The notes beneath the pieces are model-generated. The model saw only the letters and a list, made by a program, of their open reading frames with translations, was not told the origin of the DNA and did no database searches. Positions 3,564 to 60,022 of a DNA stretch of 64,000 nt are shown piece by piece (position 1 is the first letter of the stretch; every line of letters starts with the position of its first letter). The translations under genes and the position numbers were made by a program. This DNA is from Bryum argenteum (lineage: Eukaryota; Streptophyta; Bryopsida; Bryales; Bryaceae), in NCBI GenBank assembly GCA_037043015.1, contig CM073325.1:994501-1058500 (forward strand), read 5' to 3'.

Positions 3564-3933
3564 TTAACCCTTAAATGCCCATGGGGTCTAAAACGGGCAG
3601 CCCAAAATTGGATCACAACATCTTTTGGGCTTGGACATCATGAATAGTGCACTTTTTGAACTTGGGCACCATGAATGAACCAATCAATGATGAGCTTGCA
3701 ACCTCCTACAAGGTTATGTACCACCCCAACCTACCTACGATAATCCTTTCAAAGCACAAAATCACTCATACAAATTGTGATTTGAATTGTCAAATCTCAC
3801 TTTTTCAATACATCAGAAGAAGGTGACCAATTTGACATCAAAATATAAGTGAAAAGTTGAGTATAGTGAGAGCTACAGGGAAGATTATGTTGGAATCAAG
3901 CCCCTCGGGCTTGCTTGGGCGTTTAAGGGTTAA
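3564..3933. mobile_element. TTAA-flanked piggyBac-like MITE, 362 bp
   Basis: The element body runs 3568-3929 between TTAA at 3564-3567 and TTAA at 3930-3933. The ends are CCCTTAAATGCCCA and, reverse-complemented, CCCTTAAACGCCCA, so 13 of 14 terminal bases match. No open reading frame of note lies inside, so it is non-autonomous. TTAA duplication and CCC termini are what piggyBac transposases leave; the assignment is inferred because no transposase is present. Confidence 0.6.
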
Positions 3934-4371
3934 GGAACTCAAAAGCCTGTGATCATAGAAAATAGAAAATATTCAGTGTGACACCTCCCTCGCCCCTCCC
4001 GCGGCTCAAGAGGATGCCCCACCATTTTCCATAAGCAATGGCTCCCTATGAGTTATACCTTACCTAGTACATAATGCTAAGGTTTTTCTCGACTTTTCGA
4101 GATAACGCTGTTTGACAAACTTGACAAGTCTGACACCGTCGTCGTCCAGGACCTCCGACTACTGTACTGTAGTTACCGCTTGCGCCATACCTTCCTTGTT
4201 GCTTTCAATTCTCTTTGCACATGCTCCCTCGAGTACTAGCACGAGTTTGCCAATTGTCTTCCAAAGCAGTTCACTCGCCACTTCCACGCCTGCATATAAC
4301 TTGCTCGCTATGGAGCCCGATGTATCTCGATCTGCTCCGTCGCTGCAGCCCACCTTACCTCGTAGCACTCT
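3934..4371. other. 5' flank of the truncated SERK-like copy
   Basis: Probable promoter and 5' untranslated region of the SERK-like gene starting at 4372. A C-rich stretch (CCTCCCTCGCCCCTCCCGCG) lies near 3985-4005. No coding segment is seen. Confidence 0.35.
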
Positions 4372-6620
4372 ATGGCGCCTCCAGTGGCCACATGGTTGCG
4401 CGCTCTCTTCCTCATCGCGCTCCTGCCTATCGGAATCTTAGGAAACTTCGAAGGTCTGTTGCATCTTCACTCGTGGTTTATCATCTTAGAGCATGGAGCT
4501 ATAGCTATTTGAGAGTTGAGGACGTACTGCAACGCCCGGTACGAAAGAAGTGGTAGAGGATTAGAGCATATGCCTTGAATCTCGATCTCGTGGGTCGTTC
4601 TCTAGCTTGCCTCTTGGTCGCATTATTAGTCTTGATGGACCAGTCAAGACATGACTCGATTTGTGTAGGTTTTGCTTACTCCCTCTATGTGTAAGACTCT
4701 CACAAACTTATGATATAGTGGCAGCTGGCCATGGAGTCATTCAGCTGACACTTGAAGGAACATTTTTTAGTTCGGTCTTCGATTATGTTGCTCGATCGAT
4801 ACTAGTTCGAAATTTACTGCAGTGATACTTGTTCGAAATCAGATTGCGTTAGGCTTGATAAATATGCATGGTGCGATGATGACTTGGCAGGCGATGCACT
4901 GAACGCTTTCCGGCAGGCTTTGACTGATCCGAGCAACGTGCTGCAGAGTTGGGATCCCACTCTTATAAATCCCTGCACTTGGTTTCATGTCACCTGCAAT
5001 GCGGAGAATTTGGTCACTCGGGTGTAAGTCCACTCCGAGATTGTAACCTTCACTTCCTGTTGTGTCACATGACAGTCATTCTCTATGTGGAAGACACTGA
5101 TGTATAATTCAGCAGGCAAACGTTTGAATATCTCATGGTGTAGAGTCTTTTGTTTTGTGTACGTACGAGAGATTTACTGTGAGAGAGGTGCAAATCTGAA
5201 TATTGCAAGTAAGTGAATCATCTCGTGTTTGGAACAGAGATTTAGGAAATGCTGGCCTGTCAGGAGGATTAGTGTCTGAACTTGGAGTTCTTACGAAACT
5301 GCAATACCTGTAAGTGTGCTTAACGTTCTCGTCTTTTGTATGAAATTACAAATTAGGAAGTGCTTCCAGACACACATACAAGAAGTTCATTTGAGTGTAA
5401 GAACATCATGAGTCTCAATGCAAGGTATCCTCAATTTCAGCATCAGTGATAGAGAGGAGATTCATTCCTCGAGAGTTTAGATGTAATTACAGACGAGAAG
5501 CTGATTACCGCTTGTGATGCAATTTGTTTTCTGGTGGGCATTCCAGTGAGTTGTTTGGAAATAACCTAACTGGAGGGATACCTAGAGAGCTGGGAAACAT
5601 GACTGCTCTTGTCAGTCTGGATCTTTATCAGAACGCTCTGATTGGTATTATACCCGACAGTCTTGGCCAGCTACACAACCTGCGATTTCTGTACGTCCAT
5701 TATCTCGCAACGATTTTAGACGCTCTTTTGTGTTTGTCTACATATATAGATGTACACATAATCGCTTCTTATCTTCAAGAATTGCGATGTGAAGAAGGTG
5801 CTGGAAGGTTTTACTGTAGACGTCCTTTGCTTGCTGTCATTCAATGAATCCTTTTCATGACTTTAGTTCTGCAGTGATATATTGACATGTACACTTCTCC
5901 ATTGCGAATCTACTAAGTGTGAGATTTTTTTTCCTCCTTACATATCTAGAGTTGGACTTTCTTACAGTTGGGTATTTTTAACGCATCTGTTGTGTATGTT
6001 CGCTGAGCAGTCGACTTAACAATAACAGTTTGTCCGGTCACATTCCTGCTTCCCTCACTACTCTTACTAAGTTGGAACAGCTGTAAGTTCTTTCACCTGA
6101 GCTAGTCACTTGCAAAAGTAGTCATGTTAGTTAATTGGGTGCAGTTCATCGGTTTACAGAGTCCAACAAAGGCGTTCTGTGATCGTTACTGGTACAACTT
6201 TTTGCAGGGATCTTTCGTATAATTACCTTATTGGGGCCGTTCCCACCAATGGCTCTTTCTCGAAGTTCAACTCCACAAGGTACGTTTATGATTGCATCTT
6301 TGTACTCACCTTCGTATTAGCTGCATTTGGTCTGTAGTCGCCTTCGTATGGATGGTTTTCGATTGTCTGATCAATTGTACGTCAAGTCTTCGATGCTGAG
6401 TTTTCATTTTCTGCTAAAGAGAGAACAAAGAGATAGCTAAGCTTGTGCAGTGTGCCCATGGTGATATTACGGTATGTTTGTTTGTATTAATCGAAAGAAT
6501 GTAACTGTGACATGCAGTTTTGTGGGAAACCCCAACTTGTGTGGGTCAGTGGTGGGTAAGCAGTGCCCTGAACAGCCCCTTTCTCCACCTACTCCTGCAC
6601 TCGCTCCACCACCATATTAG
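4372..6620 (+). CDS. SERK-like LRR protein lacking membrane span and kinase (potential secreted ectodomain)
   Basis: Tandem paralogue of the full SERK gene at 27010. I resolve seven exons: 4372-4453, 4891-5023, 5238-5309, 5547-5690, 6011-6082, 6208-6279 and 6518-6620. Exons 1-6 have exactly the lengths of exons 1-6 of the complete copy (82, 133, 72, 144, 72, 72). They join in frame to 225 aa. Residues 1-25 are a hydrophobic signal peptide ([16 protein letters not shown]). Next come the N-terminal cap with [17 protein letters not shown], about five LRRs, the cap motif [13 protein letters not shown] and a short Pro-rich tail that ends at TAG (6618-6620). No transmembrane or kinase exon follows; similarity to the complete copy fades in intron 7 near 6800-6890. 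It may be a secreted protein like the small SERK-ectodomain LRR proteins of flowering plants, or an untranscribed relic. The open frame argues against old decay. Confidence 0.7.
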
Positions 6621-6897
6621 AGCATTCCCGGCACCCCGGCCTGTGCATGGAAGCAGGGTATGTATGAATATTCTTCATTCGATCTGATTATTGTGGGCAT
6701 GTGCCATCGCCTTTGTAGCTACCAGCATAAAACTGGCTTCCCGGCATCAATCTTTAGCTGCAAGATTGTGAAGTCGGAAAGCCATGAACTGCGAAACACC
6801 GGTAAAGATGAAGCTTTACAATGCTCCACATAATTGAAGTTCATCAGTTTTCATCATATTAACTACAGTCTCCCTGAGCTCAATAAGTATTGCCTTA
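6621..6897 (+). other. Residual intron 7 of the truncated SERK copy
   Basis: Past the stop codon the sequence still resembles the full SERK copy, including a GTATGT donor near 6659 and a stretch around 6690-6800 similar to 30090-30190. Similarity fades just before the inverted-repeat element that follows. Confidence 0.5.
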
Positions 6898-7133
6898 AGG
6901 TAGGAGTGGCTAAAACCGTCCAGCCCCAAAAACCGTCTGAATTTCAGCTTTGCTGGTACTTATACTTGGAATAGTGGTGTAAAATTTTAATTATTTTTTG
7001 ATAGTTTGCAAAGCCAGTGCAAATCCATCCCAAAAAAAAAAGACATTTTTTGAGTAATCCTATAATTTCCTATGAATATTTGAACCCTACTGTGCGGTTT
7101 TTTGGGCTGGACGGTTTTAGCAACTCCTACCTT
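6898..7133. mobile_element. Inverted-repeat MITE, 236 bp
   Basis: Terminal inverted repeats of about 39 bp (AAGGTAGGAGTGGCTAAAAC... at the left, its complement at the right) match at all but two positions. No coding sequence lies inside. I could not find a clear target-site duplication, so the superfamily is open. Confidence 0.7.
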
Positions 7134-7167
7134 GTAACTGACTGATAACGGGACTATGTACTTGTCT

Positions 7168-7247
7168 TTAACCCTTAAACGTCAAGCCCCTATGAAAATA
7201 CACTGGAAACCAAGCCCAAGGGGCATGCTCTGACGTTTAAGGGTTAA
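7168..7247. mobile_element. Minimal TTAA-flanked piggyBac-like MITE, 72 bp
   Basis: Body 7172-7243 with perfect 13-bp terminal inverted repeats, CCCTTAAACGTCA and TGACGTTTAAGGG, flanked on both sides by TTAA. The inner sequence adds a second near-inverted block (CAAGCCCCT / AAGGGGCATG). It is far too small to code for anything. Confidence 0.65.
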
Positions 7248-7464
7248 CACACTTTCGGTAATCTTGTTCTCTTTTTTGGTGCAAAAACGAAAGGTGAATC
7301 ATTCTTGATATTGGAATAAGTTTGATGATATGAATATGGATGAATATATGTTATTCAAAATCTATGTTTCCAACAACTTTTTTCATTGTGATTCAAACAC
7401 CTTTTCGGTGGACAAGAGTATGTTCTGATGTGGAATTTTTTCGGTCTCAGAATGTGTCATTTGT

Positions 7465-8306
7465 TTAACCCCTAAACTCCCCCGCGGTTGTTTAACTTGA
7501 TACATTTTGGATGAAGGGTGGAAACTTTAAAGAGAAATAACTTCTTCATCCAAAGTCATATTTTGACTTAGGTTGGGTCCCAAATCAAGTCTAGTTTGTT
7601 TGATAAAAATTGTAGACCCGTACAATGACTGAATGACATGTATTTTAGTGACAGCAGTTTTTGGATTTGAGATTTCAAACATTGAGCATGTTTTACCATT
7701 GGGCATGTTTTACCGTTGGTATTGAGAAATCAAAAATAGTTTTACATATTTTTTTTTTGAATAAGTATGATCTTAAAGTGGATCTTGACAACTATCTTGT
7801 TGAAAGATTTTTGATCCAAATAAGTTTAGTATTGGATTTGCCATGATGTTTTTCATTGAAAAAAGTGAAAAAATGGATGAAGTTTGAGGAGCTATATCTC
7901 CTTCATCCACTGTTAGATTTCAACTTTGTTTTTTGAGATGGACTTTAATTAGAGACTTGTTTTAGTGGTAGAAATCTTGACTCCATCGAAGATAAAGCAT
8001 AGGTTTGAGTGCAAGAGGTATGGTTTTTGGACTACTTTTCCTTTTCAGCTTTTTTGGCAATTTTTTAGTTTGCTAAAGTGAAAATAATGAAGTTTCACAG
8101 TTTATTTTTAGTATTGTTATGTTATGATATCCTAATCTATGAGGATTCATAGCTTAAAAGTTGGTCCGCAATCCCATGATATACAATAAGTCTATTGTAA
8201 GTTTGTACAGTTGGGAATTTCATAAGCTACCTTCATTTTCATCTATGACACTTTTTTTGAAATTGTGTTTTTTGACTAAAAATAGGCAAGAACGTTTAGG
8301 GGTTAA
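7465..8306. mobile_element. TTAA-flanked piggyBac-like element, family A, 834 bp
   Basis: Body 7469-8302 between TTAA at 7465-7468 and 8303-8306. It starts CCCCTAAACTCC and ends with the complement of CCCCTAAACGTTC. The interior is AT-rich with no long open frame. Diverged copies occur at about 18810-19676 (opposite strand), 32900-33350 (opposite strand, partial) and 61046-61470 (same strand, partial). Shared landmarks are TTGGGTCCCAA(A/G)TCAAGTCTAG near the left end and AGTGTCATAGATGAAAATG near the right. Confidence 0.65.
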
Positions 8307-8954: not shown

Positions 8955-9224
8955 TTAACCCCTAAACGATCATGGCCACTAATTCGGCTTTTACGGTCAA
9001 GGCCAAAAAATAATTTACAGTCAACTTCAAATATTATGATCTCACATCCAGTGATGATCCAACGGTTGAAAATTTTCACACTACTACCTATGGTAGTCTA
9101 ATTCAAGATCTTACGGTTGAAGTTATCAAAAATTTCCAAAAATATTGAACGTACCCGCATTAGTACATAGTAGTCAGAGTTGGGATTTCAAGCTCCCAAA
9201 ACATCGTGGATCTTTAGGGGTTAA
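8955..9224. mobile_element. TTAA-flanked piggyBac-like MITE, family B, 262 bp
   Basis: Body 8959-9220 between TTAA at 8955-8958 and 9221-9224; the ends are CCCCTAAACGATC and the complement of CCCCTAAAGATCC. The interior carries the family B signature GATCCAACGGTTGAAA ... AGATCTTACGGTTGAA, also seen at 19681-19940, 34224-34784, about 50550-50764 and 53952-54211. Confidence 0.65.
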
Positions 9225-16797: not shown

Positions 16798-18800
16798 CTT
16801 GAAGGTCGGTCGTAGCCTTCTCTCGCTTCAAACTTCCCTCCCACGTCAAGATTTGACACACAAGTATTTTCTATGAAGCAATGGATTTCTAAAAGTTGAG
16901 GTTGCAATGCTCGGGTAAAAAGAATCGGTCGAGGATCATAGCATACGATCGCGACAAGTGTTTTTTTGCCTCCTAGGTTGATATCATCATTTGGTTACCT
17001 CGAGAGGTCTTGATAGACCAACTGATGTTGATTATCAATTGGCCAACCTACACGATCTTTGATCGCCCAGATCACAAAGCTTCGATGGGCTAAGGCAGCA
17101 ATACTATTTTGAATTTCAGATCATGTAATCTTAGGAAAGTTAGGATTGGATATCATCTAGCATTTGCCCAAACCGGATGGTTGAGCTATAACTTCTTCCG
17201 ATTATCGCAGTATGGAGACAGTGAGGTCAAGTGATATGTGCACGTTTCAATTTTGAAGTCGCGTAATCACTCGCTCGCACAATCATCATCAAATGTATCA
17301 CAACCATCATTTATCAAATGTATCACAACCATCATTTATCAAATGTTCAAAGTATATGTTAACCTAATTTATAAAATTTGAAAACTCATCAACTATCCTT
17401 GTAGTAATGTCCTCTTGTTGTGTCCACTCAAAAGATTCTCTATGTTTTAGAAAATTACTTTGTGTTTTAAGACTTGCATCTTTTGTCTGTTTATTTTACA
17501 AGTGTTATTCAAGCAAAATTTCAGCATCAGGAGTAGAGAGGAAGTTCATCTTTCAAGAATTTGAATGTTGGCATATATGCTAAGTTGATTTTTGCTTGTG
17601 ATGCAATTCCGTTTTGGTAGACATTGCAGGGAGTTGTATAATAACAACCTTTCTAGGACGATACCTGCACTGCTCTTGTCAGCCTGGATCTCTATCAAAA
17701 CAATAATTCTGGAACTACACCCAACATTCTCGGCCAACTGCGCAATCTACGATTCTTGTACGTCCTTAATCGTTCATATGCAATGATCTTTAACGCTCCT
17801 TGGTATATTTCTAACTAGATGTACACATGTGCGCTTCGCACTTTCAAGAGTTTCGGCGTGAGAAAGATGCTAAAAGCTCGCAATGTAAACGTTCTTTGCT
17901 ATGTAGATTATTAATGTTGATAATGTCCAGGTTGCTCTTGTTATTTTTTGTTTGAATGATGAATTTGGTGTTGCATCAATATGTAGACATGTACAGTTTC
18001 CACTTGCAATTCGACTTATTTGTGTGCGTTTTCCTTATGATACATCTAGAGCTGGACATTCCTATATTAAGGACTTTGCATGTTTGTTGTGTATGTTTGC
18101 CGAGCAGTCGGTTGAACAATAATAGCTTGACCGGTCCAATTCATGCTTCCCTTACTTCATTTGCTTCCCTTACTTCATTGGACCAATTGTAAATTTACTT
18201 CGTCTGAGCTCTTAACAGAAGAAGTCAGTATGTGTCATTCCAGAAGCCTTTGGTGCGGTTCAGCGGTTTACGAATGCCGACATATAGATTTCAGTGTGGT
18301 GTTGTTTGATAGTCAATTGGTACAACTTTTGCAAGATTCTTTCATACAATAATTTATTTGGACCCGTTCCCAACAATGGCTCTTTCGCGATTACACTCCG
18401 ATAAGGTACTTTTGAAATTTTCACGAGCATATCCGTCTCACCTTTTTATTAGGTTTTTCTTAAGTTTCCAAGTGTGATAATCTTTTCTTATATGCATATT
18501 ATCAAATCAAGGTAGTGTCGTGTCTCATGCCTTCATGATAAAAATCTTGAGTATCTGAGAACATTTACGAATAAAGAAACAATGGATCACAAGATAGTTA
18601 AGCTACATCTATGTTTTGTGTGTGTGCTTTGTTTCTTAACAACATGGTAATAATACAAATAAAAGTGTGTTCTAGTCAAAAGGACGCACACGTGATGTGC
18701 AGTTTTCTAAGAAACCCCAACTTGTGTGGGTGAGTGGTTGGTAAATAGTACCTTGGAGTCGCCCCCTTTTCCATCTCCGCACCACCACCATCTCATACAT
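16798..18800 (+). pseudogene. SERK-like receptor kinase pseudogene (exons 4-7 remnants)
   Basis: Third SERK copy, same strand as the other two. Similarity starts at an intron 1 segment (TTGAAGGTCGGT at about 16799, as at 27086). Exons 2 and 3 are absent. A damaged exon 4 is at about 17632-17759 (ELYNNNLSRTIP, with an internal deletion), exon 5 at about 18108-18190 (with an inserted duplicate of TTCATTTGCTTCCCTTAC), exon 6 at about 18335-18405 and the start of exon 7 at 18698 (FLRNPNLCG, then a stop). No start codon, signal peptide, membrane span or kinase remains. Similarity ends where a family A TTAA element begins near 18810. Confidence 0.8.
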
Positions 18801-18809
18801 CTTCCAAAA

Positions 18810-19680
18810 ACTCATTTTTGGAAAAAGTGACATAGATGAAAATAAAGATAAGCTATTCAAATCTTAACCCTACTAACTTGTAAAGGACTTGTTGTAAATC
18901 GTGTGAACCAAAACTTAACTCATGGAGCCTTATAGATTGCAAGATTGTTATGTTTTGAAGTGAAAAAACCACCAACATGAAATTTGCAATAAAAAAATCA
19001 CCAATTAGAAAGATGTTCATCTTCATCTCAAAGACCCTATTGAGCCCAAAAATTTCATTAAAAAAATATCTTGGCTCAGATAGTACCCTTGTACTTGTGA
19101 AAATTGCCAAACATTTTACAAAGAAAAAATAGTCCAACACTATACCCCTTGCAGTCAAATCCATGCCTAATTTTCATTACAACTTTGGTTGGGTTAAGGT
19201 CTCTACCACTAAACCTAGACTATAATTTGAATCCATTCCCAAAAAATCAATTTAAAATCTAACAAAAGATGAAGGAGATATAGCTCCTCAAAAATCATCC
19301 ACTTTCTCACTTTTCTCATTGTAAAAACATCATTGCATATCCAGTACCAAAGTTATCCAACTACAAAGTTGTTGGGATGAATTTGAATATCATATTTATG
19401 CAAGAAGTATTCATGGAGAAACTATTTTTGATCTTACATAATTGGCTTGCAATGGTAAAACATGCCCCATGTTTGAAAACCCAAAAACAAAAGTTGCCTT
19501 CACTAAAATGCATGCCATCTATACATACTTCATTGTACGGGCTTAAAATTTTTACCACACAAAATAGACTTGACTTTTGACTCATACCAAGTGATATGGA
19601 TGAAGAAGTTATGGCTCTTCAAAGTTTTTGCCCTTCATCTATAATGTTGTTTTTTGACATTAGAGACGTTTAGGGGTTAA
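18810..19680. mobile_element. Family A piggyBac-like element, inverted and 5'-decayed
   Basis: Ends at 19676 with GACGTTTAGGGG followed by TTAA (19677-19680). Its interior is the reverse complement of the 834-bp element at 7469-8302, with landmarks such as ACATAGATGAAAAT at about 18829 and GATGAAGAAGTTATGGCTCT at about 19600. The left terminus is not recognisable where it meets the SERK pseudogene. Confidence 0.55.
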
Positions 19681-19944
19681 TACCTAAAGGTCCAAGAAAG
19701 CGGAAATCCCTTTTTGGAATTTCCGCAGGGAGAAAATTTAGCCAACTTTGACCATTATAATCTCAAAATTGGAGAAAAATTAACTGTTCAAATTTGACAT
19801 TCGAGAAAAAGGTCAAGTTAACTTTAAGATCCTACGGTTGGATCTTCTAATCAATGCTTAGATTGAGTTTCCTTGCACCTAAAGTAGAAGAAGGTTCTTT
19901 TTGATAATTTAGACAATTTCGTATCAAGGACCTTTATGGGTTAA
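19677..19944. mobile_element. Family B piggyBac-like MITE sharing a TTAA with its neighbour, 260 bp
   Basis: Body 19681-19940, between the TTAA of the preceding element (19677-19680) and TTAA at 19941-19944. The ends are TACCTAAAGGTCC and the complement of CCCATAAAGGTCC. The interior closely matches 53952-54211: CAACTTTGACCATTATAATC, then GATCCTACGGTTGGATCTT. Confidence 0.55.
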
Positions 19945-21987: not shown

Positions 21988-22083
21988 ATACTGTAAGTAG
22001 ATAGATAGATAGAAACTTTGGTCCCTTTCTAAGGGGCCGGCGTGAATGAAGTGTCCGTTTGTAATGCTAATATACTATAAGTA
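21988..22083 (-). mobile_element. 5'-truncated SINE, (TATC)n tail, 12-bp target duplication
   Basis: Body 22000-22071 (72 bp), flanked by ATACTGTAAGTA (21988-21999) and ATACTATAAGTA (22072-22083), one mismatch in 12. On the minus strand it holds only the SINE 3' end (ATTACAAACGGACACTTC ... GGACCAAAGTTTC), followed by a TATC tail. Confidence 0.75.
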
Positions 22084-22607
22084 CATCAATAATCAAAGTT
22101 GGCAAGCATAATGTACCTCCTACTTAAATTGGACTAGTGGGTGGTTTTTTTGGTGTTGTGGTGTTGTGTGAATTTCAAGTCACCTACCTTAACCCCGAAA
22201 GGTGAGCAGCCTCAGAACAAGAAAAATTATCTCAAACTTGCAAAAGGTTTTAACTTCATGCAATTTAAAAATAGTAAGTGAAAGGCTGACCAAAGTCGAA
22301 TTGATCCGATTTGGGCCTCACTCACCTCTAGGGATCAAGTCAGTCTTTGTCTTGTAATAAATTTAGTTCCCACTTCAATGTTCTGAACACCAATCTACCT
22401 TGCAATTTCATGAGGACATCATTTTTGAAAAGTGGCATCTTAGAAACCTAGGTTTGTAATGGATTTATGATAAATTACCTCCTAAAACAATATGTTGTGA
22501 GTTGTTTTTTTCCCAAAGGTAGCAAATATATGGGTAAGAAAGTAGCCAAGATGTAACTTTACTAAGGTGGTTGGTTCAAAACTGGAGCAAGCCCAAGAAT
22601 GGCCCAC
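22084..22607. other. Intergenic DNA
   Basis: No gene recognised. A TTAACCCCGAAAGG phrase at 22189 resembles a piggyBac-like terminus, but I found no matching other end. Confidence 0.4.
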
Positions 22608-27009: not shown

Positions 27010-30000
27010 ATGGCGCAACCAGAAGTGGCATGGTGGCGCCCTCTCTTTCTGATCGCGCTTATGCCTATTGGAATATTAGGCAACCTTGAAGGTCGGTTGC
27101 GTCTCTCTCTTGCTCTGTGTCTTGTCGGCGTATCTTACTTCCTGTCACATCAAGGGTAGACACAAGTATTTCGAAGGAACCAGATTATCATGGCGATTTA
27201 TAACCGACCTAGGGTTGCGAAAGCGTGCACAGTGCAGGATCAGAGCAGGAGATTTTCTAGATTCTCACGACTTAGATTGCGTGGTCTATTTTCTTGCGTC
27301 TTGGTCGGCATCATCAGGTAGTTATCTCGAAAGGCGTGGAGCGGGAAAAGAGATAGAGCGGTCTTGATGGACCAGTTGATGATGATTTCAAAGGAACTTG
27401 ACTTGTCTAGGGTTTGCTTATTCCGCTCTATGCGTAGGCCTGTAACCTAACTTCGATGTCTTATATAATACATACTCTCACGAATTTAAATTCTGAATAG
27501 GTGAATGAAGGACGAGTAACGATTGTGTCATTTAGTCTACATTTATAGAAATCTTTCTACTTCTCGATTTTTGATCGCACTGAGCTTATCTATGGCGAAG
27601 GCATCAATACTAGTTCGGATTTCATTTTATGCAATCCTTGAAATGACTTCACAGGACTTCAAGAATGGAAGCCATTTAGCATTTGCGTTCGCCCGTACCG
27701 AGTAGTTGAGTTACAAGATAACATTGTACTCTAGAGTTCATTACTTCCTCCGGTCATCGCAGTTTGCCGACAACAGAGTGGAAGTAATATGCCCCAAGCT
27801 TTACTTTTGAAGTTGCTTGGATCTAGCTCATCTTTTATATAATGTACGAAGTACACGTTAACCTAGTGTATAAATTTGGATATTCATCAACTGCTCTAGT
27901 AACAATGTCCTCTTGTCGTTTCCATACGGATGTTAGAATCGAACTTATATGTTTTAGAGTAATATTCTGTGTTTGTATATGTTTCGAGATTTTGTGTTTT
28001 GTGTGCTGTTTGTTCAGGAGAGTTAGATAGGTGTTGATGAAATAGCTCGTGTTGCCAATGGTTCTATTGAACAAATTCATAATCTCATCGTGTTAAGCTT
28101 GATAATGATACGTGGTGCGATGATGACTGGGCAGGCGATGCGCTGAACGCTTTTCGGCAGAGTTTGACTGATACGAGCAACGTGCTGCAGAGTTGGGATC
28201 CCACTCTTGTAAACCCCTGCACTTGGTTCCATGTTACCTGCAATACGGAGAATTTGGTCACTCGGGTGTAAGTCCACTCCTCGTTGCTGAGATTCAACAA
28301 TCACTTCTTGTTTGATAAGCCAGTTCTTATACCTGACAGTCATTCTCTGTGTGGGAGACACTGACACAGGCAGTGAAGGCCAACGTTTGAGTATTTCAAA
28401 GTGTGGATTCTTTCCGTTAGTGTATGGGAGATTGTGTATGTGAGAGGGGTGCAAATCTGGTTATTGCAAGTGAGTGATTCATTTCGTGTTTGTACAGAGA
28501 TTTAGGGAATGCTGGGCTGTCAGGACAATTAGTGCCTCAACTTGGGATTCTTACGAATCTGCAATACCTGTAAGTGTGCTGAGCTGTCAGACTTGCATCA
28601 AATGTCAGAAACTTTACAAGGACATCATTGCGTGTTTGTTTATTCAAATGTCAGAAAATCAGTCTCGATCAGAGGTAGCCTTACGAATAGAATTTCAGCA
28701 TGAGTGAGAGGTAGGAAGTTCGACTTGCGTGAATTAGGTGTTGATCTCATATGAGAAGCTGTTTCTCGCTTGTGATGCGATTTTGTTTTTGTGGGCATTG
28801 CAGGGAGTTGTACAGTAACAACCTATCTGGGACTATACCTAAAGAGCTGGGAAACATCACTGCTCTTGTCAGCCTGGATCTTTATCAGAACAATTTTACT
28901 GGAACTATACCCGACAGTCTTGGCAATCTGCGCAACATGCGATTTCTGTACGTTCTTTGTAACATAATCGTTGAGTAGTTTAATTTAATGTACACACATT
29001 CGCTTGCTATCCCAAGAGTTGGGCCGAAGGATGTCACAGGTTTTCCTGCAGACGTCCTTTAGTTGTCATTATCAACTGAAAGTTACGATGTCCCTGTACT
29101 TCCTTTTGTCGAGTATATGATTATGGCACATCCCATAACTTAATGTCACGAATTCGGATATTAGTGCTGCATCTACATGTAGGCATGGATGAATCCTCTT
29201 AACAATGGTACTCATCCTTCTGGGGTCTTCTTTACTCTCTATCTGGACTTAGGTCATTAACACATCTGTTCTGTATGTTTACCGAGCAGTCGTCTGAACA
29301 ATAACAGTTTGAGCGGTTCCATTCCTGTTTCCCTCACCAATATTGTGGGGCTGCAAGTGCTGTAAGTTAACTCCTCTGAGCTTCTCACAAAAGTAGTCCT
29401 TTCTTGTGACTTTAGACTCCTTCCTTGGCTTCTGGTGCAGTTCATGGGTTTACGGATGCCAACAAATATTCCAGTGGCGTTGTGTGATTGTCATTATAGC
29501 GCTTGGTATTACTTTTGCAGGGATCTTTCGTACAATAGGTTAACTGGAGACGTTCCTACAAATGGCTCTTTTTCGGCTTTCACACCTATCAGGTACATTC
29601 TTGTTTTTATCATTCTGTTGTCACCCGTGACTGTTTTCCGAGTGCGAGAGATTATTAAGTCTTCGTATGCTCACAAATGATTGATTATGTGTTTCATATA
29701 CATCAGTGAAGATTCTAGTCTCGTGCTTTCCATCATATCAATCCAGAGGATCTGTGAACACTTTCGTACTAAAAAACAAGGGGACCACGGTATAGTTAGG
29801 CTGCAATTTTGAGGTTTTGTGCATATGTTTTTCCCTCCAAAATTACGGTATTTTCAAGAACTGTTGTGTGTTCTAATCAACAGGATCTAAATGTGACTTG
29901 CAGTTTTGTGGGAAACGCCGACTTGTGTGGGTCAGTGGTCGGTAAACAGTGCCCTGGACAGCCCCCATTTCCACCTCCTCCTCCACTTACACCACCACCC

Positions 30001-32295
30001 CCGGCAAGTTTGAATGGACAACAAGGTATGTACGAGCAAGGTGTGACGATTAGTGTATCTCAATAAGATACGGTCATGTGAGGAGTATTGTGGGAATATG
30101 CTAACGCTTTTGCTTTAAGCAGTCTAGAAATGGCTGACAGCATCATGCTTTATCTGGTTCCCTAATCATGAAGCCTTGTACTGTTACAACTCTTAGTTCT
30201 TAACTGCCTCATATAATTGGAATCAGTCAGTATATTTCATAAGAATAGTCTCCTAAGCCAGATTACTAACAAGGTTAGGACGTTCCACTCCGTGAAATGC
30301 AGCGAGGGCTCAACAAACCACGAGTACAGGAGCTATTGCAGGTGGAGTTGCCGCAGGCGCTGCTTTGCTGTTTGCTGCTCCGGCCATTGGCTTTGCCTGG
30401 TGGCGTCGCCGAAGGCCCATTGAAGCTTTCTTTGATGTCCCTGGTAAGCACTGGAAAAGAGATCATGTACCCACAATCATTCATCATACTCATCGGCTTT
30501 ATCGTACTTATTTTATTGTTCCTATTCTTTACGATACTTCTCTAATAAGTAGCATATTCAGCTGAGGAGGATCCGGAGGTGCACTTAGGACAGCTCAAGC
30601 GCTTCAACTTGAGAGAGCTCCAGGTGGCGTCAGACAACTTCAGCAACAGGAACATCCTTGGTCGTGGTGGATTCGGTAAGGTCTACAAAGGCCGACTAGC
30701 AGATGGAACGCTAGTGGCTATCAAGCGCCTGAAAGAAGAGCGCAGTCCTGGAGGAGAGCTTCAGTTTCAAACTGAGGTATATGAACTGCTGCCGAAGCTT
30801 ACGATATATCAGAAGTTTCTCACTAACCTTCAACATGACGCTCTTTCGATAAATTTTTCTAGTCTGCATTACGAGTCTGTTCACGTCAAACTCTTCTGCT
30901 AGTTCATGACGAAGGGTACTGGAGAGACTTGTCATTATGGCATGGTACTAACACCAAAGTTGCACGTTGCATCAGGTTGAGATGATTAGTATGGCAGTGC
31001 ACCGGAACTTGTTGCGACTTCGTGGATTTTGTATGACCCCTACGGAACGATTGCTTGTGTATCCATACATGCCTAATGGAAGCGTTGCTTCTCGACTGAG
31101 AGGTCTGCTTCCGCTGCTTGCATTCAGCACCTGCAAATCTAGCCTTATGTGCAATGTATCCTTGAAACTGCTAGGGAGTCAATCGAGGACATAGAGAATG
31201 ATAAATGGGGAGAGCCTTAAAAGAAGGATCCATTTCCCAATTTTGCTTTATTCTTTGCAAAGTTTATGGTACACATTTTTACAGTTTTTGAGAGTTCCGA
31301 CTGCAGAACGTGTGGATGGGGAGCCTGCTTTAACTTGGCGGACGAGGAAGCAAATTGCGTTGGGTGCTGCCCGAGGGCTGTCATACTTGCACGATCACTG
31401 TGATCCGAAAATCATCCATCGTGATGTGAAGGCTGCCAATATTCTTCTGGATGAGGAGTTTGAGGCAGTCGTGGGAGACTTCGGTCTCGCGAAGCTGATG
31501 GATTATAAAGACACTCATGTTACAACAGCTGTGCGGGGGACAATTGGCCACATTGCCCCAGAGTATCTCTCCACTGGAAAATCATCGGAGAAGACCGACG
31601 TGTTTGGGTTTGGAATCATGTTGTTGGAACTCATCACAGGCCAGCGTGCGTTTGATTTGGCCCGTCTCGCCAATGACGACGATGTCATGCTCTTGGATTG
31701 GGTGAGTCATGCAAACCTCGCTCAACTTTCTTCTATGGCGTAGTGAAGAACACCATCATGAGCAACTATCTGATGTACATTTTTTGATGTGATCAGGTTA
31801 AGGGATTGTTAAGGGAACGCAAGGTTGATCTGCTGGTGGATCCTGACCTCAAACAAAATTATGACCAGAAGGAAGTTGAAGAGCTCATTCAGGTAATACA
31901 CTGATTCGACTTCCCATACCTTTGCATTTCCACAGTCCAGACATCCAATGGAATGCACCAATTGTGTTTTAGATGGTTTAGATTCGTTTTTCAACCTGTC
32001 TTTGGAACGTGCCTACAGTTCACCACTTCTGTCTTGGGTGGCAATTGATGACTGGACATGGTCATATTTGCAGGTAGCACTGCTGTGCACACAGGGCTCG
32101 CCTTTGGACCGGCCAAAGATGAGTGACGTTGTGCGCATGCTAGAAGGAGACGGTCTTGCAGAGCGGTGGGAGGAGTGGCAGAAGGTGGAAGTGGTTCGAA
32201 ATATGGATATGGACTTGCCACCGCACCGAACATCGGAATGGATCGTGGATTCCACGGATAATTTGCACGCGGTGGAGCTTTCTGGTCCCAGATAA
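27010..32295 (+). CDS. SERK: Somatic embryogenesis receptor-like kinase (SERK), complete
   Basis: LRR-II receptor-like kinase, the shared plasma-membrane co-receptor for steroid, peptide and immune LRR receptors in plants. Thirteen exons join in frame to 630 aa: 27010-27091, 28135-28267, 28498-28569, 28804-28947, 29290-29361, 29521-29592, 29904-30025, 30303-30443, 30562-30776, 30976-31102, 31307-31701, 31797-31892 and 32074-32295. A signal peptide (about 1-25) leads to the N-cap [17 protein letters not shown] and about five LRRs, one or two per exon. After these come NADLCG, the SERK-typical Pro-rich SPP-like region ([14 protein letters not shown]), the membrane span [15 protein letters not shown], and the kinase. 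Catalytic residues are intact: [11 protein letters not shown] (from 313), Lys334, HRD 431-433, DFG 451-453, and [10 protein letters not shown] in the activation segment. It ends in the family C-terminus [11 protein letters not shown]. Splice sites are GT-AG. The ATG at 27010 aligns with that of the truncated copy. Confidence 0.95.
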
Positions 32296-32899: not shown

Positions 32900-33350
32900 C
32901 TTTTAGTCACAAATACATTAAAAATAAAGTGTCATAGACGAAAATGGAGATTAGCTATTCAGATTTAGCATTACAAACTTGTAGTAGATTATTTTGGGCC
33001 ATGTGGACCAAAATGTGAGTTATAAAGCTTCATAGATTGTGAGATCATAACATGTTAGTACCCAAATTAGATTACAAAATATCATCCTTTTCACTTTGGA
33101 GGGGAAATCTTATCAATAAAACTACTACAATGAAAAAAATCACCAACTAGAAAGTTGTTCACCTTCAACTCGAAAACATTCTTTTACCAAAAAATTACTT
33201 GTCAAATTATCTTTCTAGCTCAAATATTGGCCTTGCTATGGTGAAAAGTGCCAAATTATTTACAAAGAAGGAATAGTTCAAAACGAGACCCTTTATCGTA
33301 TTTCAAAGTTTCTCCACTTTATCGTATTTCAAAATTTGGTTCCCACTATA
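32900..33350. mobile_element. Partial family A piggyBac-like element (inverted)
   Basis: Aligns with 18820-19160 and with the reverse complement of the element at 7469-8302: AGTGTCATAGACGAAAATGG, AGCTATTCAGATTTAGC, ACAAACTTGTAGTAG. Neither TTAA terminus can be recognised, so it is a remnant. Confidence 0.5.
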
Positions 33351-34219: not shown

Positions 34220-34788
34220 TTAACCTCTAAAGGCCCAAACTACCCCAAATGGGCTTTTGTTGTTTCGAGCATCCTAAATGAAGGGGTTAGCATCAATATC
34301 TTTTTCCAAGATACACACTAGATGTTTGCTATACTATAAGGTGTGTGTAAGAATTTGCAAAGTCAAATTCCAAACTAAGAATTTCTTAACTCAAAATTTA
34401 GTTTTTAAGGCCAAATAGGGCATTTAAGCACCTTTATATTCAGTCTTTTTTTTTAGAATTTTTTTGAAATATGTTTATGATGATACTACCCATGAAATTT
34501 TCAAGATATCGATGTTGAAGCTCTTACCAAATTTACAAGGGCAGCCTTGAGAACATACAAGAGCAAGCTTCAAAGTTTGCGAGAAAACTTGACTGACCGA
34601 CTTTGAATGTTACGATCTCACAAATGGTAAAGATCCAATGGTTGAAATTTTGACATGGTGTTACTGCAAGTGGTCACTTTTGAAGATCTTATGGTTGGAG
34701 TCATACCTTAACTTGCGCAAAGTGGTCAATATAACATAGTTTATAAAATTGAAGGCTAAAAAACAAAGCTTGGGGCTTTAGGGGTTAA
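34220..34788. mobile_element. TTAA-flanked piggyBac-like element, family B, 561 bp
   Basis: Body 34224-34784 between TTAA at 34220-34223 and 34785-34788. The ends are CCTCTAAAGGCCC and the complement of CCCCTAAAGCCCC. The interior carries the family B phrases AAGATCCAATGGTTGAAATT and GAAGATCTTATGGTTGGAG. It is longer than other family B members. Confidence 0.6.
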
Positions 34789-49136: not shown

Positions 49137-49369
49137 TTAACCGTTAAAAGTCCCTTGGGGATAGTATGTATGCTGTCGTATGATTAGGATTTGCTACCAA
49201 CAAGAAACTCTAGACTGGAATCGTAATAGCTCACTCGAACCACATTAATTCAAATGTCAACTTCTTCTTTGAACTCAAACCCATTAAAGGTGTGCATTCA
49301 CTCCAAATACAACCAAAATACATCGTATTCTACTGGTCGCCACGGCACGCTCACACCTTTAGGGGTTAA
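49137..49369. mobile_element. TTAA-flanked piggyBac-like MITE, 225 bp
   Basis: Body 49141-49365 between TTAA at 49137-49140 and 49366-49369; ends CCGTTAAAAGTCCC and the complement of CCCCTAAAGGTGT. The left end is mutated relative to the consensus CCCCTAAA. Confidence 0.5.
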
Positions 49370-49484: not shown

Positions 49485-49593
49485 TCAGCTTGTGTCGGCC
49501 ATCGGGATATTAGCATTACAAACGGACACTTCATTCACGCCGGCCCCTTAGAAAGGGACCGGAGTTTCTATCTATCTATCTTCAGCTTGTGTC
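49485..49593 (+). mobile_element. 5'-truncated SINE, (TATC)n tail, perfect 12-bp target duplication
   Basis: Body 49497-49581 (85 bp), flanked by TCAGCTTGTGTC at 49485-49496 and 49582-49593. It contains the SINE 3' end: GGCCATCGGGATATTAGC, then ACGGACACTTCATTCACGCC, then GGAGTTTC, then TATC units. The same 3' end occurs at 22000-22071 and 52560-52650 on the other strand. Confidence 0.82.
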
Positions 49594-50549
49594 ATTGACA
49601 CGGCAATGTAACTTCTACTTTTTATTACCTTGAAATAAGTTTTACCATTTGATGTCGCTCCCCATTCCACGAGATTGAAAAATTATAACATTCCTTTTTA
49701 TACTTTAAAGCACATGAAAGTCAATCCCGTTGCAAGACGTAACTAGCCCTCATTGGGAAGATTATTACATGTGATTGACAAAGTTTTCATTTTAATGGAC
49801 TTTTGCAATGCACTTGTTTAATCCAAAATTCATGAAAATTGAATATCAAGATCATATTTATGAGGGTTTTCAATATCACTTCTAAATAAGTCAACTATGC
49901 ATCTACATGATCTTAGCATTTACTCTATGAGTATGAGGAATCCTCGAATGTGTTTGTATATGTAGGTCTTAGTCAAGATTTCTAACACTTTGAAAGTTAT
50001 ATAGTTCAAAAGAGACAAAAGTTTGAAAATTAAACAATAAAAAGTAAAAATTTCCAAAATCAAGACTTTAGAATTGGACTTCATTTGCTTAAATCCTCAC
50101 ATTGAAGATTACACCTAGTTTTAAATAAGTAAGTTGGTGTCTTATAGGCGATAGAGATCCATAGGAGATTGAGATTTTATTAGTGCAAAACCAAGCTATT
50201 TCAATGGAAGATGAAAGAACAATAACAAATGCACAGTTAGAAGGTGTTCTTGCATCAATATTACCAGTATAAGTATTTGTAAGATCATATATTATTTAAA
50301 ATTCTTAAAACTCAAGAAGGTATATATTCGATGTTCATTTTTCCCCTAAACCATATACAATAAATGTGGTGCATGTTTTACCAAATCCTTGACTTTTACC
50401 TTCTTCTAGTAAATAAATTGCATGAAGGTTCAAAAAGCAAAATGAGTGTCTAAATTTTGCATGGGCATGCCCAACTTAGTTATATACATGGAAAAAAATA
50501 TGAGCTAGATGTTTAAGGTAATAAGCATCACGTTTTCCTTTGCACAAAG
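49594..50549. other. AT-rich intergenic DNA
   Basis: No recognised gene or repeat boundary. Confidence 0.5.
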
Positions 50550-50768
50550 TCAACTATGTTTGTTGTATCTTTGAATGTAATGATCTTACAAATGGCTACG
50601 ATCCAACGGTTTAAATTTCAGCCACTACCTCTGATAATACTTTTTTTCAAGATCATACGGTTGAAAGTTTCAAAAAAGTCTAAAAAATATACTCACACTC
50701 CAAAGTGGTATGGAATTGCAATTTTGGAGTTTGGAGCTCACAAAACACCATGGTCGTTTAGGGGATAA
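50550..50768. mobile_element. Partial family B piggyBac-like element
   Basis: Ends at 50764 with GGTCGTTTAGGGG, followed by ATAA where the others have TTAA. Interior phrases ACGATCCAACGGTTTAAATT and TCAAGATCATACGGTTGAAA match the element at 8959-9220. The left end is not recognisable. Confidence 0.5.
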
Positions 50769-52928
<2,160 letters not shown>

Positions 52929-52944
52929 TATATATATATATATA

Positions 52945-53650: not shown

Positions 53651-53947
53651 ATCGGTATCATGGTAAAAGATCCTCATAGGTGGGGTGGTTGAGGTCGAAG
53701 TCATTATATCGGCCTCATGCGTCTTGTTATGGTTCAATGAGGAATATGTGAACCTTGTTGTATAGGTATCCACATATCGCTTTGTGGAATAATAACCCGT
53801 TTGTCGTTTACTATACACTAATAACAAATTAGAATCAAATATAGTGTTTACAATGAAACCAATTAGTAATCTTGCACCAATAGTGTGTTATTTCTAATGG
53901 CCATAAACATAAAAGACATGTCAGACAAAATTTCATCCACACTAACC

Positions 53948-54215
53948 TTAACCCCTAACTCTCCTTAAAACCCGAAACGGGTTGGGGAGGTTTCCGCAGG
54001 AGAAAAACTCAGCCAACTTTGACCATTATAATCTTACAAATGAGGAAGAATGAACGGTTCAAATTTGGTATGTTAGATGAATGTCAAGTGAACTTTGAGA
54101 TCTTACGGTTGAATCTTTCAAATAATGTTTGGATTGAGATTTTTTGAGCTGAATCTAAAGGAAGGTCAAATTTTGTGCATTAGACCGTTTTGCATCAAGG
54201 AGAGTTAGGGGTTAA
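53948..54215. mobile_element. TTAA-flanked piggyBac-like MITE, family B, perfect 15-bp TIR
   Basis: Body 53952-54211 (260 bp) between TTAA at 53948-53951 and 54212-54215. The ends are CCCCTAACTCTCCTT and its perfect complement AAGGAGAGTTAGGGG. It is co-linear with 19681-19940, also 260 bp. The best-preserved member of the family here. Confidence 0.72.
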
Positions 54216-55642: not shown

Positions 55643-55694
55643 TCCCTGGCAGGATTCGAACCTGGCAGTGCCCCTACCAATTTAGGGCCAGGGA
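55643..55694 (-). other. tRNA-like remnant or tRNA-derived fragment
   Basis: On the minus strand a perfect 7-bp acceptor-like pair (TCCCTGG with CCAGGGA) encloses an exact B-box, GGTTCGAATCC, and an A-box-like TGGCCCTAAATTGGTA. At 52 nt it is too short for a tRNA and has no anticodon arm, so it is at best a relic or a SINE head. Confidence 0.4.
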
Positions 55695-55843
55695 TTTAGC
55701 CTTCCTAAAATGCAAAGACCCAAAAGAGGATCCGTGCATTTTTGGGAGGCTTGTTAGTACGACATGCCCACAGAACATTTACAAGAATGTAATTCATACA
55801 TATTTACATACAAAAGTGAAAGGGATCGAAAACAAACAAACTT

Positions 55844-57904
55844 TCAAGAAATTGAGGTCCCTTGGTCAAGTGCCTCTAAGTATGAAGATGCATTGCTTAC
55901 ACTAGGACCCGGGGAGGAATTAGACAAGTAAGTAGCCGGTTTAGCATACAGGAACTTATACTTTGTTTCACTCTTCCACAAGGAGATAGCATCTTCAATT
56001 ACACCATCATACTCCTCATCCGGTCCCTCCAAGGCAACTCTAAGCAAACAATCCAGGTTTTTACTTCCCAATTTGTTTCTAACACGAGTTTTGATTAAAT
56101 TTTGTATACTGAAAGCTCTCTCACAGGTAGCGGTGGACACACACTGCACTCTAGCAATCTCAGCCAAAACAAGCAAGTTTGGGTATCGTGTTTGTAGGGC
56201 ATGATTCCATGTGATCATACCCCACAAATCACGGAAGTTTTTATCTCCCCATTCCGTCGTGCACTGCAACTTAAAAGACAGAAATTCACGCTTACAAGCC
56301 TGCACGTCAAGGAAGGGGGGGAAGGAAAAACCTGAATGGGACCGGTCCTCTCCATACAACTGGAGCAACCTGTCTAATTCGGAAACTCCCCAATTCTCGC
56401 ACCCACTTGCTTAGACGGCATATTAGAGGGGTTCGAAATTTTAAAACACGAAAGCATATCATTGTCCTTGAAACGAGCATCGAGACTGCGCAAATCGCTC
56501 CTCCGCAAATGCTTGCCGAATGCCGCTTCTTCCAAGTCTGTTCCTAGTCGGGACCTACACATTGCCACATCGTGAAACATATTGCCTCTAATCTGGCTCG
56601 ACAGCTTACGCATATACCCCCCGAAAGGCCCATACTCAGGGAGGATGTGGTAACCACTACTCTCGCTAAAAGTTGCAGCGTTCAAATCTGTAGTTTCCAC
56701 AAGAAAAAGCATTCGGATTTGGGCAATTTCACAAGCACAATGCTACCTATAGAAGTGACATCTACGAATTTGCACTTGAAGACTTTAGACAACATAGCTA
56801 GACAATGCAATATGTCTGCAAGAAAGAACAAAATGTAGATGATTTTAAATTGGGACAACCTCTCCAAGATAGACGCTCCCTGACCATCATCAACATCACG
56901 AAAAAAAACCAAGACCGACTCCAAAGAATCACACAAGGTACTCACAGACTGCCAACGACTCAACCACCGAATCTTATGATAGCGTTTCATGCACTTTCTG
57001 GCATCGAACAGCTCGTTCTGCAAGGCTATAAGTGCGTGCTTACGCTTACTCGACTTGTGAAAAAAAGAAGAAATCGAATTCAAGAGGCTGTCAATTTCAC
57101 CTGAAATTACCTTGCAGTTGGGCGCCTTCGCTGCATCGAGTGCCGCCAAGTTGGTGCGGTGTGCTACGCAATGGGTGGCAAGCAGGTAAGGGTTTACCTC
57201 CTTCTTGATGCGTGTGGCCACTCCAGTGTGGCAGCCAGTCATCGTCGCTGCTCCGTCACTACCGAATCCCAAGAACTTCCGCAAATCTAAACCCCAAGCG
57301 CGCAGCTGTGAAATGAGCGCTTCATAGATCACAACAGCATCTTTTCCTCCGTCGACCGGCAGTAACCCCAAGAACAAGGTCACCGGCAGTCCCTCCTCAA
57401 CGATGGTGCCGAAAACCACCAGTGTGCCCCGCGACGGCGATATCGGTGGACTCGTCAACCATTATACCGTAGAAAGAAGAATTCCGAACACGATTGAGTA
57501 CCTGCTTCTGGATTACAACTGAAATGCAAGCCATTATATTCGCACATGACTTCTCATCTTGATACAAAGATAAGGTCATCGGGGCATTCACACTCACGAG
57601 CAATTTGCATAAAGAAGGGAACTTAGAGTAAGGTAAAGGATTGCTTCCCCAAAAGTATGCGACCTTTCACGAGTGAAGCCACAACAGTCGCATGCTTTCG
57701 CCCACCGACGATCACCTTCTCCATCACCTTCCCGCCATTGCTCATGGCCCAAGCAAGGCGTCTGTGTTCGACGGAGCGGGAGTGGTCTTGAAAAGCGCTC
57801 ACCTTAAAATTCTTGGAGCCGTCTTTGGCGTACGATCGACCGCCTTTCTCCCCGCACACCCTACGTAACACCCTCCCAACATCTCGCCGCAAATCGCAGC
57901 CCAT
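55844..57904 (-). pseudogene. hAT-type transposase (DUF4371/ZNF862-like), at least four frameshifts
   Basis: Transposase-derived coding remnant. Parts in order: an N-terminal segment with FKVSAFQDHSRSVEHRR (57904-57623); SVNAPMTLSLYQDEKSC and SSFYGIMVDESTDI, with the catalytic-domain start (to about 57440); and GTLVVFGTIVEEGLPVTL, FLGFGSDGAATMTG and HCVAHRTNLAALDAAK, the RNase-H-fold core (57430-56705). The C-terminal hAT dimerisation region is YPNLLVLAEIARVQCVSTAT, CERAFSIQNLIKTRVRNKL and LDCLLRVALEGP (56370-55844). Frame changes near 57632, 57440, 56705 and 56400 break it. Terminal repeats and an 8-bp duplication were not found. Confidence 0.78.
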
Positions 57905-59768
57905 TCAAACCGAATGTACCCACTGTTCTTTCCACAAACCTTGAGCAATCTCAAAGATCCGAAGGAGGAGGTCGATCCAATGTGGAATGACCGGTTTCGG
58001 GAGAAGACTCATTCTCGCACTCAAGACACAATCTCAATGACATCCACATCCTTCGAGCGTGAGAAGTAGTGTGACGTCAATGACCTCTGCCGTTTCGCCA
58101 TGATCGACCCCGATCGCAATGTAGCCTTCACGAGTCACGACAAAGACGACAACGGCGATCGACCTAAGCATTCGAACACAAGCCTTCACGAGACACGACA
58201 ACATCGACCACAACTTCGAACACAAAGGCTTATTGAACACAACTTCAATACAATTCCGATTGAATACAAAGGCTTATCTCATGCGATTGAAGCGATCCGT
58301 TCTCACCTCTCTCCGAACACCACCAATGAGGCACCGTATGGCGATCCGTTCACCTCCGCATCACCAACAGGCAAAGAATGAGCGCACACGATGATGAGCG
58401 CAATTGAGGCACAACGAGTCACAAATGAGGCACCGTATGAAAGCGATGCAAAATGATGAGCGCAATTGAAGCGACCAAATATGATCCAACGATGAGCACA
58501 CAACCGCACACTACACTTGAACCTCGCAACGACGAGCATTCAACACAATGAAGAACGATGGTCGTTTTGCAAAGCCGAGCGCAAGAACATCTTTGGAGCG
58601 AATGAGCGCGAAAGGCACCCCCAAATCCCGATTGAAAGCACTCAAGCGCCCGCCACCGAGCATCATCGCGTGACTCCTGCGAGTGGGTGACTGGCGTGGC
58701 GAGCGAGGAGTCCCATCGCCGTCATGCACCGGTCCAGTCACCAATGAAGACCTAAAACCGCAGCCCTAAAACCGCCCCACTTCTGGCCGTCCGATGGACC
58801 ATGGCAATCGTCCGGTGGAAGATTCAAAAATTTGAATCCAATGATTCAAAATTTTGAATCATTGGAATCAAAATTTTGAATCATTGGATTCAAATTTTTG
58901 GCTCTTTGGATTCAAATTTTTGACTCTTTGGATTCAAAATTCTCTAGTATTCCTATTGTCCCCATAATAAAAATTTCCTACAAAGCCTAAACCTAGTCGG
59001 CTACGCGCCGAATAAAAAAAATTTGAATCGGTAATTTTCCTCCATATTCTTCTTGTGACCGGCCAAAAAGCCGACACTTAAATTTTTTATCCGGTTCCAT
59101 TTCCGAATTTTTTTTTTTTTTCGACCGGTACCCTTGACTAAATTATTTTTTTTCAATCGGAAATTTTCAAAAGTAACCGGCTAGCTTGTAACTAACTGCC
59201 GGTACTCCCCGGACATTGTTCCCACCTCCCTTCCTTCCTCATGTCGGTGCACCTTCCTCGAAACACCCTTCCTTTCCAACAAATTATCCCCTCACTAATT
59301 AGTCAATTGTTAAGGTGCCCTAATTCCTCCCATGTCGTAGATTGGATGTCCTAAATGGTATCAAACGTCTACTGATGGATATCCTCACAGCCTATCAATC
59401 TCTTTAGGAAAAACCTCTGTTTGTCAATCTTCGTGAAGGTGCCCTAATTCTTCCATGTCATAGATTGGATGCATTACTCCGACTGACGGATGTGCAATCT
59501 CTTTGGAAAAAACCTCAATTAGTCAATCTTTCACGATTTAGTTACTGTGCCCGAATACTCCCATGTGATGAATTGACTATTGAAATGGATATCCTATCGA
59601 AATGGTGGAGTGGGAGATGACCGATCTGTGCTATGCTTTTGGAGGTGTTCTTTTGGGTACCTTTTTATAATTGTGAAGAAAAGGCTGGTCTGGAGTTTTT
59701 GTGGATTTCGAGAGTGGTGAGGTGAAGTGTCCATTGAGCAATGGAAGCAGAAGGGAGGGTTCCTTTTG
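57905..59768. other. Flank of the hAT remnant; repeat-rich DNA
   Basis: 58080-58540 carries imperfect internal repeats (GAGGCACCGTATG twice, GATGAGCGCAATTGA twice, ACACAAAGGCTTATT and variants). 58824-58941 is a run of GATTCAAAATTTTGAATC palindromes. 58960-59180 is A/T-run rich with CCGGT phrases. No gene recognised. Confidence 0.5.
58824..58941. repeat. Tandem near-palindromes of GATTCAAAATTTTGAATC type
   Basis: At least five partly overlapping copies of ATTGGATTCAAAATTTTGAATC-like units, each self-complementary, in 118 bp. Strong cruciform or hairpin potential. Confidence 0.8.
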
Positions 59769-60022
59769 TTAACTCCTAAAGCAGATTGTTCTACAATAAC
59801 TACCAAATAGGCGTTTGGAAACAACATTTTTTCGGAGGTTTGATTTTGAGAAATCTAGCCGTAGGATCTTGTTCAAAACTGTCATGTTAGTTTACTCTCT
59901 TCGAGTTTTGTCAAATTGTACCTCATGGATTCTAAGATATAATCAGTGTGTTCCATTTTTGTAAGAACAACGTTTTTTGGCGAATCAACCCGATTCGGGC
60001 TTCTGTCTACTTTAGGGGTTAA
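59769..60022. mobile_element. TTAA-flanked piggyBac-like MITE, 246 bp
   Basis: Body 59773-60018 between TTAA at 59769-59772 and 60019-60022; ends CTCCTAAAGCAGA and the complement of CCCCTAAAGTAGA. Eleven of 13 terminal bases agree. Confidence 0.6.

Follow-up and report, generated by a model that had tools for sequence, protein, structure and literature searches.

The 64-kb window analysed here, the whole stretch C5:994501-1058500 of the Bryum argenteum genome, carries genes typical of a land plant, among them a receptor-kinase frame whose nearest PDB entry is plant BAK1 (E 3e-78), an L-gulonolactone oxidase 2-like gene and pieces of GT61 glycosyltransferases. Lying in the same window are 14 small elements, 11 of them two-ended and three partial (Table 1). 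We interpret them as non-autonomous derivatives of piggyBac transposons, that is, as miniature inverted-repeat transposable elements (MITEs), moved by transposase-coding full relatives ("masters") in the same genome, and put the probability of this reading at about 0.96. A preliminary description of the window had already proposed a piggyBac-like MITE population, and this proposal is supported by ends shared with masters, by the PF13843 transposases of those masters and by empty sites with a single TTAA.

That description had listed nine TTAA-flanked elements with complementary ends resembling CCC(C/T)TAAA, along with extra partial copies. The coordinates of all nine hold; TTAA abuts both ends in 9/9 and every terminus reads CCC(C/T)TAAA, exactly or with one or two bases altered. 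Partial copies were recovered by homology at 18803-19676, 32901-33294 and 61115-61368, as was the degraded element at 50343-50764, and a further degraded element (22193-22334), missing from the earlier list, was found here. The window MITEs possess no long reading frame.

Table 1 Elements of the window, with the evidence that delimits them and their similarity to other copies (L numbers denote fetched loci)
Feature	Position	Strand	Evidence	Similarity
MITE 362 bp, ends CCCTTAAAYGCCCA	3568..3929		TTAA at 3564-3567 and 3930-3933	final 60 bp 76% to ends of masters L009/L010
MITE 72 bp, ends CCCTTAAACGTCA	7172..7243		TTAA each side	94% to MITE in L034; 87% over 30 bp to L009/L010 master ends
Family B MITE 834 bp, ends CCCCTAAAC	7469..8302	+	TTAA each side	69-73% over two stretches to abundant 617-bp MITE (L033-L035); matches other MITEs only
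Family C MITE 262 bp	8959..9220	+	TTAA each side	93% to young MITE L050 over whole length; 87-88% to final 236-240 bp of masters L014/L021
Family B reverse copy, one end lost, other end GGGG followed by TTAA	~18803..19676	-	homology to 7469-8302	
Single TTAA between two abutting elements	19677..19680		TTTAGGGG TTAA TACCTAAA	
Family D MITE 260 bp	19681..19940	+	74% to 53952-54211, similarity ends at TTAA	71% over 105-117 bp to 3' subterminal region of masters L024-L028
Degraded element, TTAA then CCCCGAAAGGTGAG ... CTCACCTCTAGGGA then TCAA	22193..22334		two ends, TTAA at left only	
Partial family B copy; empty site of master L019 falls within it	32901..33294	-	homology	
MITE 561 bp, ends CCTCTAAAGGCCCA / CCCCTAAAGCCCCA	34224..34784	+	TTAA each side	79% over 98 bp to masters L024-L028
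MITE 225 bp	49141..49365		TTAA each side	no match among fetched sequences compared
Degraded element 422 bp, flanks TTTT and ATAA	50343..50764	+	homology to masters	~70% over 409 bp to 3' ends of masters L022-L028
Family D MITE 260 bp	53952..54211	+	TTAA each side	39 other full-length copies (268-270 bp including TTAA, 94-98%) among best 40 of 2203 candidates; also matches master ends or subterminal regions
MITE 246 bp	59773..60018		TTAA each side	no match among fetched sequences compared
Partial family B copy	61115..61368	+	homology	

The association between these ends and TTAA is far from random. Convergent pairs of CCCCTAAA-type ends (at least 6/8 bases matching, adjoining TTAA and at most 1.5 kb apart) occurred 10 times in the window, one of the pairs connecting the termini of two separate elements, against a mean of 0.09 and a maximum of 2 in 100 shuffles. 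Exact CCC[CT]TAAA words stood directly after TTAA in 12 of 18 cases in the window, compared with 5 of 2309 occurrences for 838 permuted 8-mers, the choice of word being independent of TTAA. Among 19 tabulated termini the first three positions were C in 18, 17 and 17, respectively; the fourth was C in 13 and T in five, so most ends read CCCCT.

The proposal to look for a full element with the same ends and a piggyBac transposase proved fruitful. A profile search with PF13843, the piggyBac transposase domain, across the 258.8 Mb genome (25 contigs) gave 116 scored matches from 775 first-look candidates (best E 7.4e-82), distributed across C1 to C11, and none in 14 control genomes. We fetched 20 of these loci, a non-random sample of most of the strongest matches plus identical-scoring copies, and 16 proved to be TTAA-bounded elements of 4942–8384 bp with inverted ends. 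The end search required TTAA, not CCC, and the best inverted pair opened with CCC in 16/16; ends include CCCTTAAACGCCC, CCCCTAAAGATCC, CCCCTAAAGGCCCA, CCCCTAASTGCCCA, CCCCTCAAGGCCCA and CCCTRGAACGTCGG (L009 has several possible left ends, of which the nearer was used). Three aspartate motifs, DE, D(N/K) and VD, align in all 16 masters, and we take their aspartates to be the catalytic DDD triad. The longest frames measure 494–1187 aa from stop to stop, and proteins of the other master families are 29–62% identical to that of L024. Only two solved structures were matched, piggyBat (9c0f, E 3e-28) and piggyBac (6x67, E 4e-25). CxxC-type motifs near the C-terminus, judged by eye, were present in seven of the nine longest frames inspected (incomplete in L011) and absent from those of L022 and L024, which end earlier. 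As a separate observation, the L021 element carries a ~488-bp insert relative to L014 (element positions ~2425-2912), bordered on either side by a GATG repeat; we considered it as a piggyBac-type element and rejected this, as its flanks are GATG, not TTAA, which indicates another kind of element.

Ends of this type are abundant throughout the genome. The exact 12-mer TTAACCCYTAAA occurs 23,184 times (11,520 + 11,664), compared with 401 (207 + 194) for the reversed pattern, a density of 5.7 per 64 kb genome-wide and 12 in the window. The exact 17-mer end TTAACCCCTAAAGGCCC has 669 copies, its reversed control none, and the 100 places listed for it include 37 convergent neighbour pairs, spaced at 5.68–5.70 kb (n = 13), 251–256 bp (n = 22) or ~570 bp (n = 2). 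Since it occurs in pairs at 5.68–5.70 kb as well as at 251–256 bp, this one end delimits full-sized elements and MITEs alike. In the window, the elements beginning at 3568, 7172, 8959, 19681, 34224 and 53952, together with 50343-50764, match master ends or subterminal regions.

These masters bear directly on whether the elements could belong to another superfamily that targets TTAA. Sola3 uses TTAA. Kolobok likewise produces TTAA duplications (PMC9587614), and moss has an entry for Sola1 in Table 1 of PMC9033089. The same paper on Kolobok gives its termini as 5'-RR/YY-3', however, whereas those here are CCC..GGG with 5'-CCC, and the masters with these ends carry PF13843 transposases, a family other than that of Kolobok. 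Pfam scans of four master frames returned PF13843 only, no search aimed at Sola having been made. A Kolobok or Sola3 origin is very unlikely as a whole and refuted for the families with a matched master; it would keep some chance only for the elements at 7469, 49141 and 59773.

TTAA is a palindrome, and the preliminary description had noted that it might form part of the terminal repeat, the elements using some other duplication or none. Its presence at 19/19 tabulated termini would suit this idea, though the table itself was selected on TTAA. To distinguish filled from empty sites, the flanks of an element were joined with one TTAA and searched in the genome, ~40 candidates being scored per search. 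With master L022, the junction is crossed by 34 of the 41 matches listed, at up to 99% identity, and three fetched empty sites agree with the join in 162/164 columns, each with exactly one TTAA. Master L019 is inserted in a copy of the abundant 617-bp MITE, and 40 of 41 listed matches span its junction at 99–100%, as do two window family B copies at 70–74%. The join of MITE L050 is present at six places with 100% identity over 165 bases (the junction is crossed by 36 of the 42 matches listed), and that of MITE L049 at four places with 95–97%. Spanning matches were more diverged for L054 and L059, reaching 92% and 91%, respectively, and for L055, which had a single one at 86%. Overall, five of 12 MITE joins and three of six master joins gave spanning matches.

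TTAA is therefore the target duplication, since empty sites carry one TTAA and filled sites two, and the ambiguity is settled by the empty sites of L022, L019, L050 and L049. Neighbouring elements also share a single TTAA, both in the window, where two abutting elements meet as TTTAGGGG TTAA TACCTAAA, and at C2:1912906/1912919, where two full-sized elements have one in common. No duplication outside TTAA was found in any of the nine listed elements at any length from 2 to 10 bp. That TTAA belongs to the terminal repeat is refuted outright for L022 and L050 by their intact empty sites, and in general we give it practically no credence.

The 617-bp element, a TTAA/CCC MITE represented by L033-L035 on C2, was itself found at 99–100% identity over 154–157 bases at no fewer than 40 places; 39 of the 40 places listed, from 2800 first-look candidates, lie on C2, possibly reflecting a very recent burst.

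PIF/Harbinger MITEs of the Tourist type are likewise small inverted-repeat elements of plants, differing in their 3-bp TTA/TAA duplication and in transposase family. The 3-bp sub-words of TTAA make such a duplication formally possible, and the window contains a Harbinger-type transposase fragment (PF13359, 38667-39415, minus strand). However, the ends are symmetrical about the 4-bp TTAA and the masters with these ends encode piggyBac, so that a Harbinger origin has next to no chance of being correct. The fragment was rejected as a master, as it has no enclosing CCC/TTAA ends within 12 kb, nor were inverted ends with a 3-bp TWA duplication found around the Harbinger frames. A hAT fragment (PF05699, 55844-56410) was considered in the same way and also rejected; the eight pairs of sites that enclose it are 6–11 kb apart and match in only 4–11 of 16 bases, and these sites belong to listed MITEs or degraded sites.

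The scarcity of piggyBac descriptions from land plants could suggest that the assembly is contaminated with animal, fungal or algal DNA and that the sequences come from it. This is exceedingly improbable, given that the 116 PF13843 matches extend across C1 to C11, that full elements are embedded in repeats present on many contigs and that MITEs of the same families sit among plant genes in the window. CCCTAAA resembles the plant telomere motif, and an explanation of the ends as telomere repeats was dropped, as they vary (CCCTTAAA, CCCCTAAC) and bound transposons.

Several observations weigh against a piggyBac origin for all of the elements, or against a complete set of functional masters. Three of the nine listed elements (7469, 49141 and 59773) matched none of the 16 masters at E 1e-3. 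Four of the 20 fetched loci were excluded from the masters, three (L013, L015 and L023) having no CCC end pair and the fourth, L017, having a CCCC pair that was weaker (11/14 bases). Among the ~40 candidates scored per search, none spanned the junction for seven of 12 MITEs, three of six masters and four of five window elements. The exception in the window was 3568-3929, where 34 of the 45 matches listed run across the junction at 77–84%, but all 12 fetched empty relatives (L036-L047) read CTAG (n = 10), CTAT (n = 1) or CTTG (n = 1) instead of TTAA. The prediction of a single intact TTAA at empty sites thus stood for L022, L019, L050 and L049, while at 3568-3929 only the 4-bp length of the site was confirmed. 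As these relatives are diverged, the target there may have become TTAA before insertion, CTAG changing to TTAA by C>T and G>A. A diverged empty relative of L025 similarly reads ATAA. Finally, the longest frames in five near-identical full copies measure 515, 553, 831, 831 and 916 aa; therefore, not all encode a whole transposase and some are probably incomplete genes.

Two further sources of empty sites were tried in the window. The sequence at the right edge of 50343-50764 continues in repeats (51120 and 51709) that lack the element, and was set aside as weak evidence, these relatives reading ACAA at the site. None of the three tandem SERK/BAK1-like receptor-kinase paralogues (4837-6613, 17517-18778 and 28081-32295) covers an element; the detected similarity of the first and second to the third ends before the kinase exons.

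Under the piggyBac reading, the transposase of the masters would bind the CCC(C/T)TAAA ends of MITEs in trans, excise them and join them into TTAA, duplicating it, and the MITEs would be full elements shortened by internal deletion. The five near-identical full copies (L022, L024, L026, L027 and L028), at five different sites, show 0–8 substitutions in ~5.69 kb across all 10 pairs, with 4–9 short gaps per pair; L024 and L028 have no substitutions between them, and L025 is 97.9% identical to L022. Ten of 11 other fetched MITE copies are 98.5–99.6% identical to L050, the eleventh (L048) belonging to a different family (57%). Because full copies and MITE copies are nearly identical at many sites, transposition was probably very recent, and it may be ongoing now. 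Judging from sequence, we lean towards a natural, possibly active system, a large and diversified land-plant piggyBac population that is probably still jumping, with hundreds of transposase sequences, full copies identical over 5.69 kb at separate sites and thousands of MITEs cross-mobilised via shared ends.

Elements of this kind are already known, the host, population size and youth being unusual. They share with the piggyBac superfamily (6x67, 9c0f) the TTAA duplication, CCC-type inverted ends, PF13843 with three aspartate motifs and perhaps, judged by eye in several copies, a C-terminal Cys/His-rich region. They differ in their land-plant host, longer frames of up to 1187 aa from stop to stop, element sizes of 5–8 kb, a fourth end base that is mostly C, not T, and nearest solved relatives at only E 1e-25 to 1e-28. 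The inverted ends of piggyBac carry a CC[C/T]T motif according to a study of Acropora corals (PMC2872659). The CMITEs described there are also small and non-autonomous; they duplicate TTAA, have ends of the CC[C/T]T type and share their genome with piggyBac masters, and one family starts with CCCC like most ends here. In contrast, they inhabit an animal, measure ~100 bp and are estimated there at tens to hundreds of copies, whereas the moss genome holds tens of thousands of ends and window elements of 72–834 bp.

Reports from plants are sparse. Table 1 of a 2022 review of land-plant transposons contains six inverted-repeat superfamilies, piggyBac not among them (PMC9033089), and a MITE survey of 207 genomes assigns plant MITEs to five superfamilies and one special group (PMC12550479). 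Plant pipelines could therefore miss or mislabel such elements. Two reviews name piggyBac as one of the plant or angiosperm groups but give no particulars (PMC10794571, PMC10004981), a statement in an animal paper has it isolated from plants (PMC10813416) and a repeat table for a fern includes 1230 piggyBac-labelled fragments (PMC6890710). We recognised no plant piggyBac with transposase and empty sites in a literature search from which subscription literature mostly fell outside, so that an earlier description may exist; within the literature searched, no plant piggyBac is characterised to this depth. With masters, MITEs and empty sites in one genome, cross-mobilisation of MITEs becomes directly testable, and so do the silencing of this superfamily, which is rare in plants, and the possibility that it arrived horizontally.

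Other repeats were also detected in the window. A second family of MITEs, whose inverted ends are long (TAAGGTAGGAGTGGCTAAA..), is represented at 6897-7133 and in L060-L065, with 39 other copies at 91–94% among the best 40 of 304 candidates; its flanks resemble TAA..TTA with no clear duplication, and the sequence at 60171-60479 has only the type of ends in common with it. An element of ~770 bp at 51027-51794 has long imperfect inverted arms (68–103 bp, 72–77%), and related sequence lies at 50767-50860. An uninterrupted CT/GA microsatellite of 516 bp occupies 52041-52556, and beside it stands a 67–77 bp repeat that is 94–97% identical to 21999-22073 and 49507-49581.

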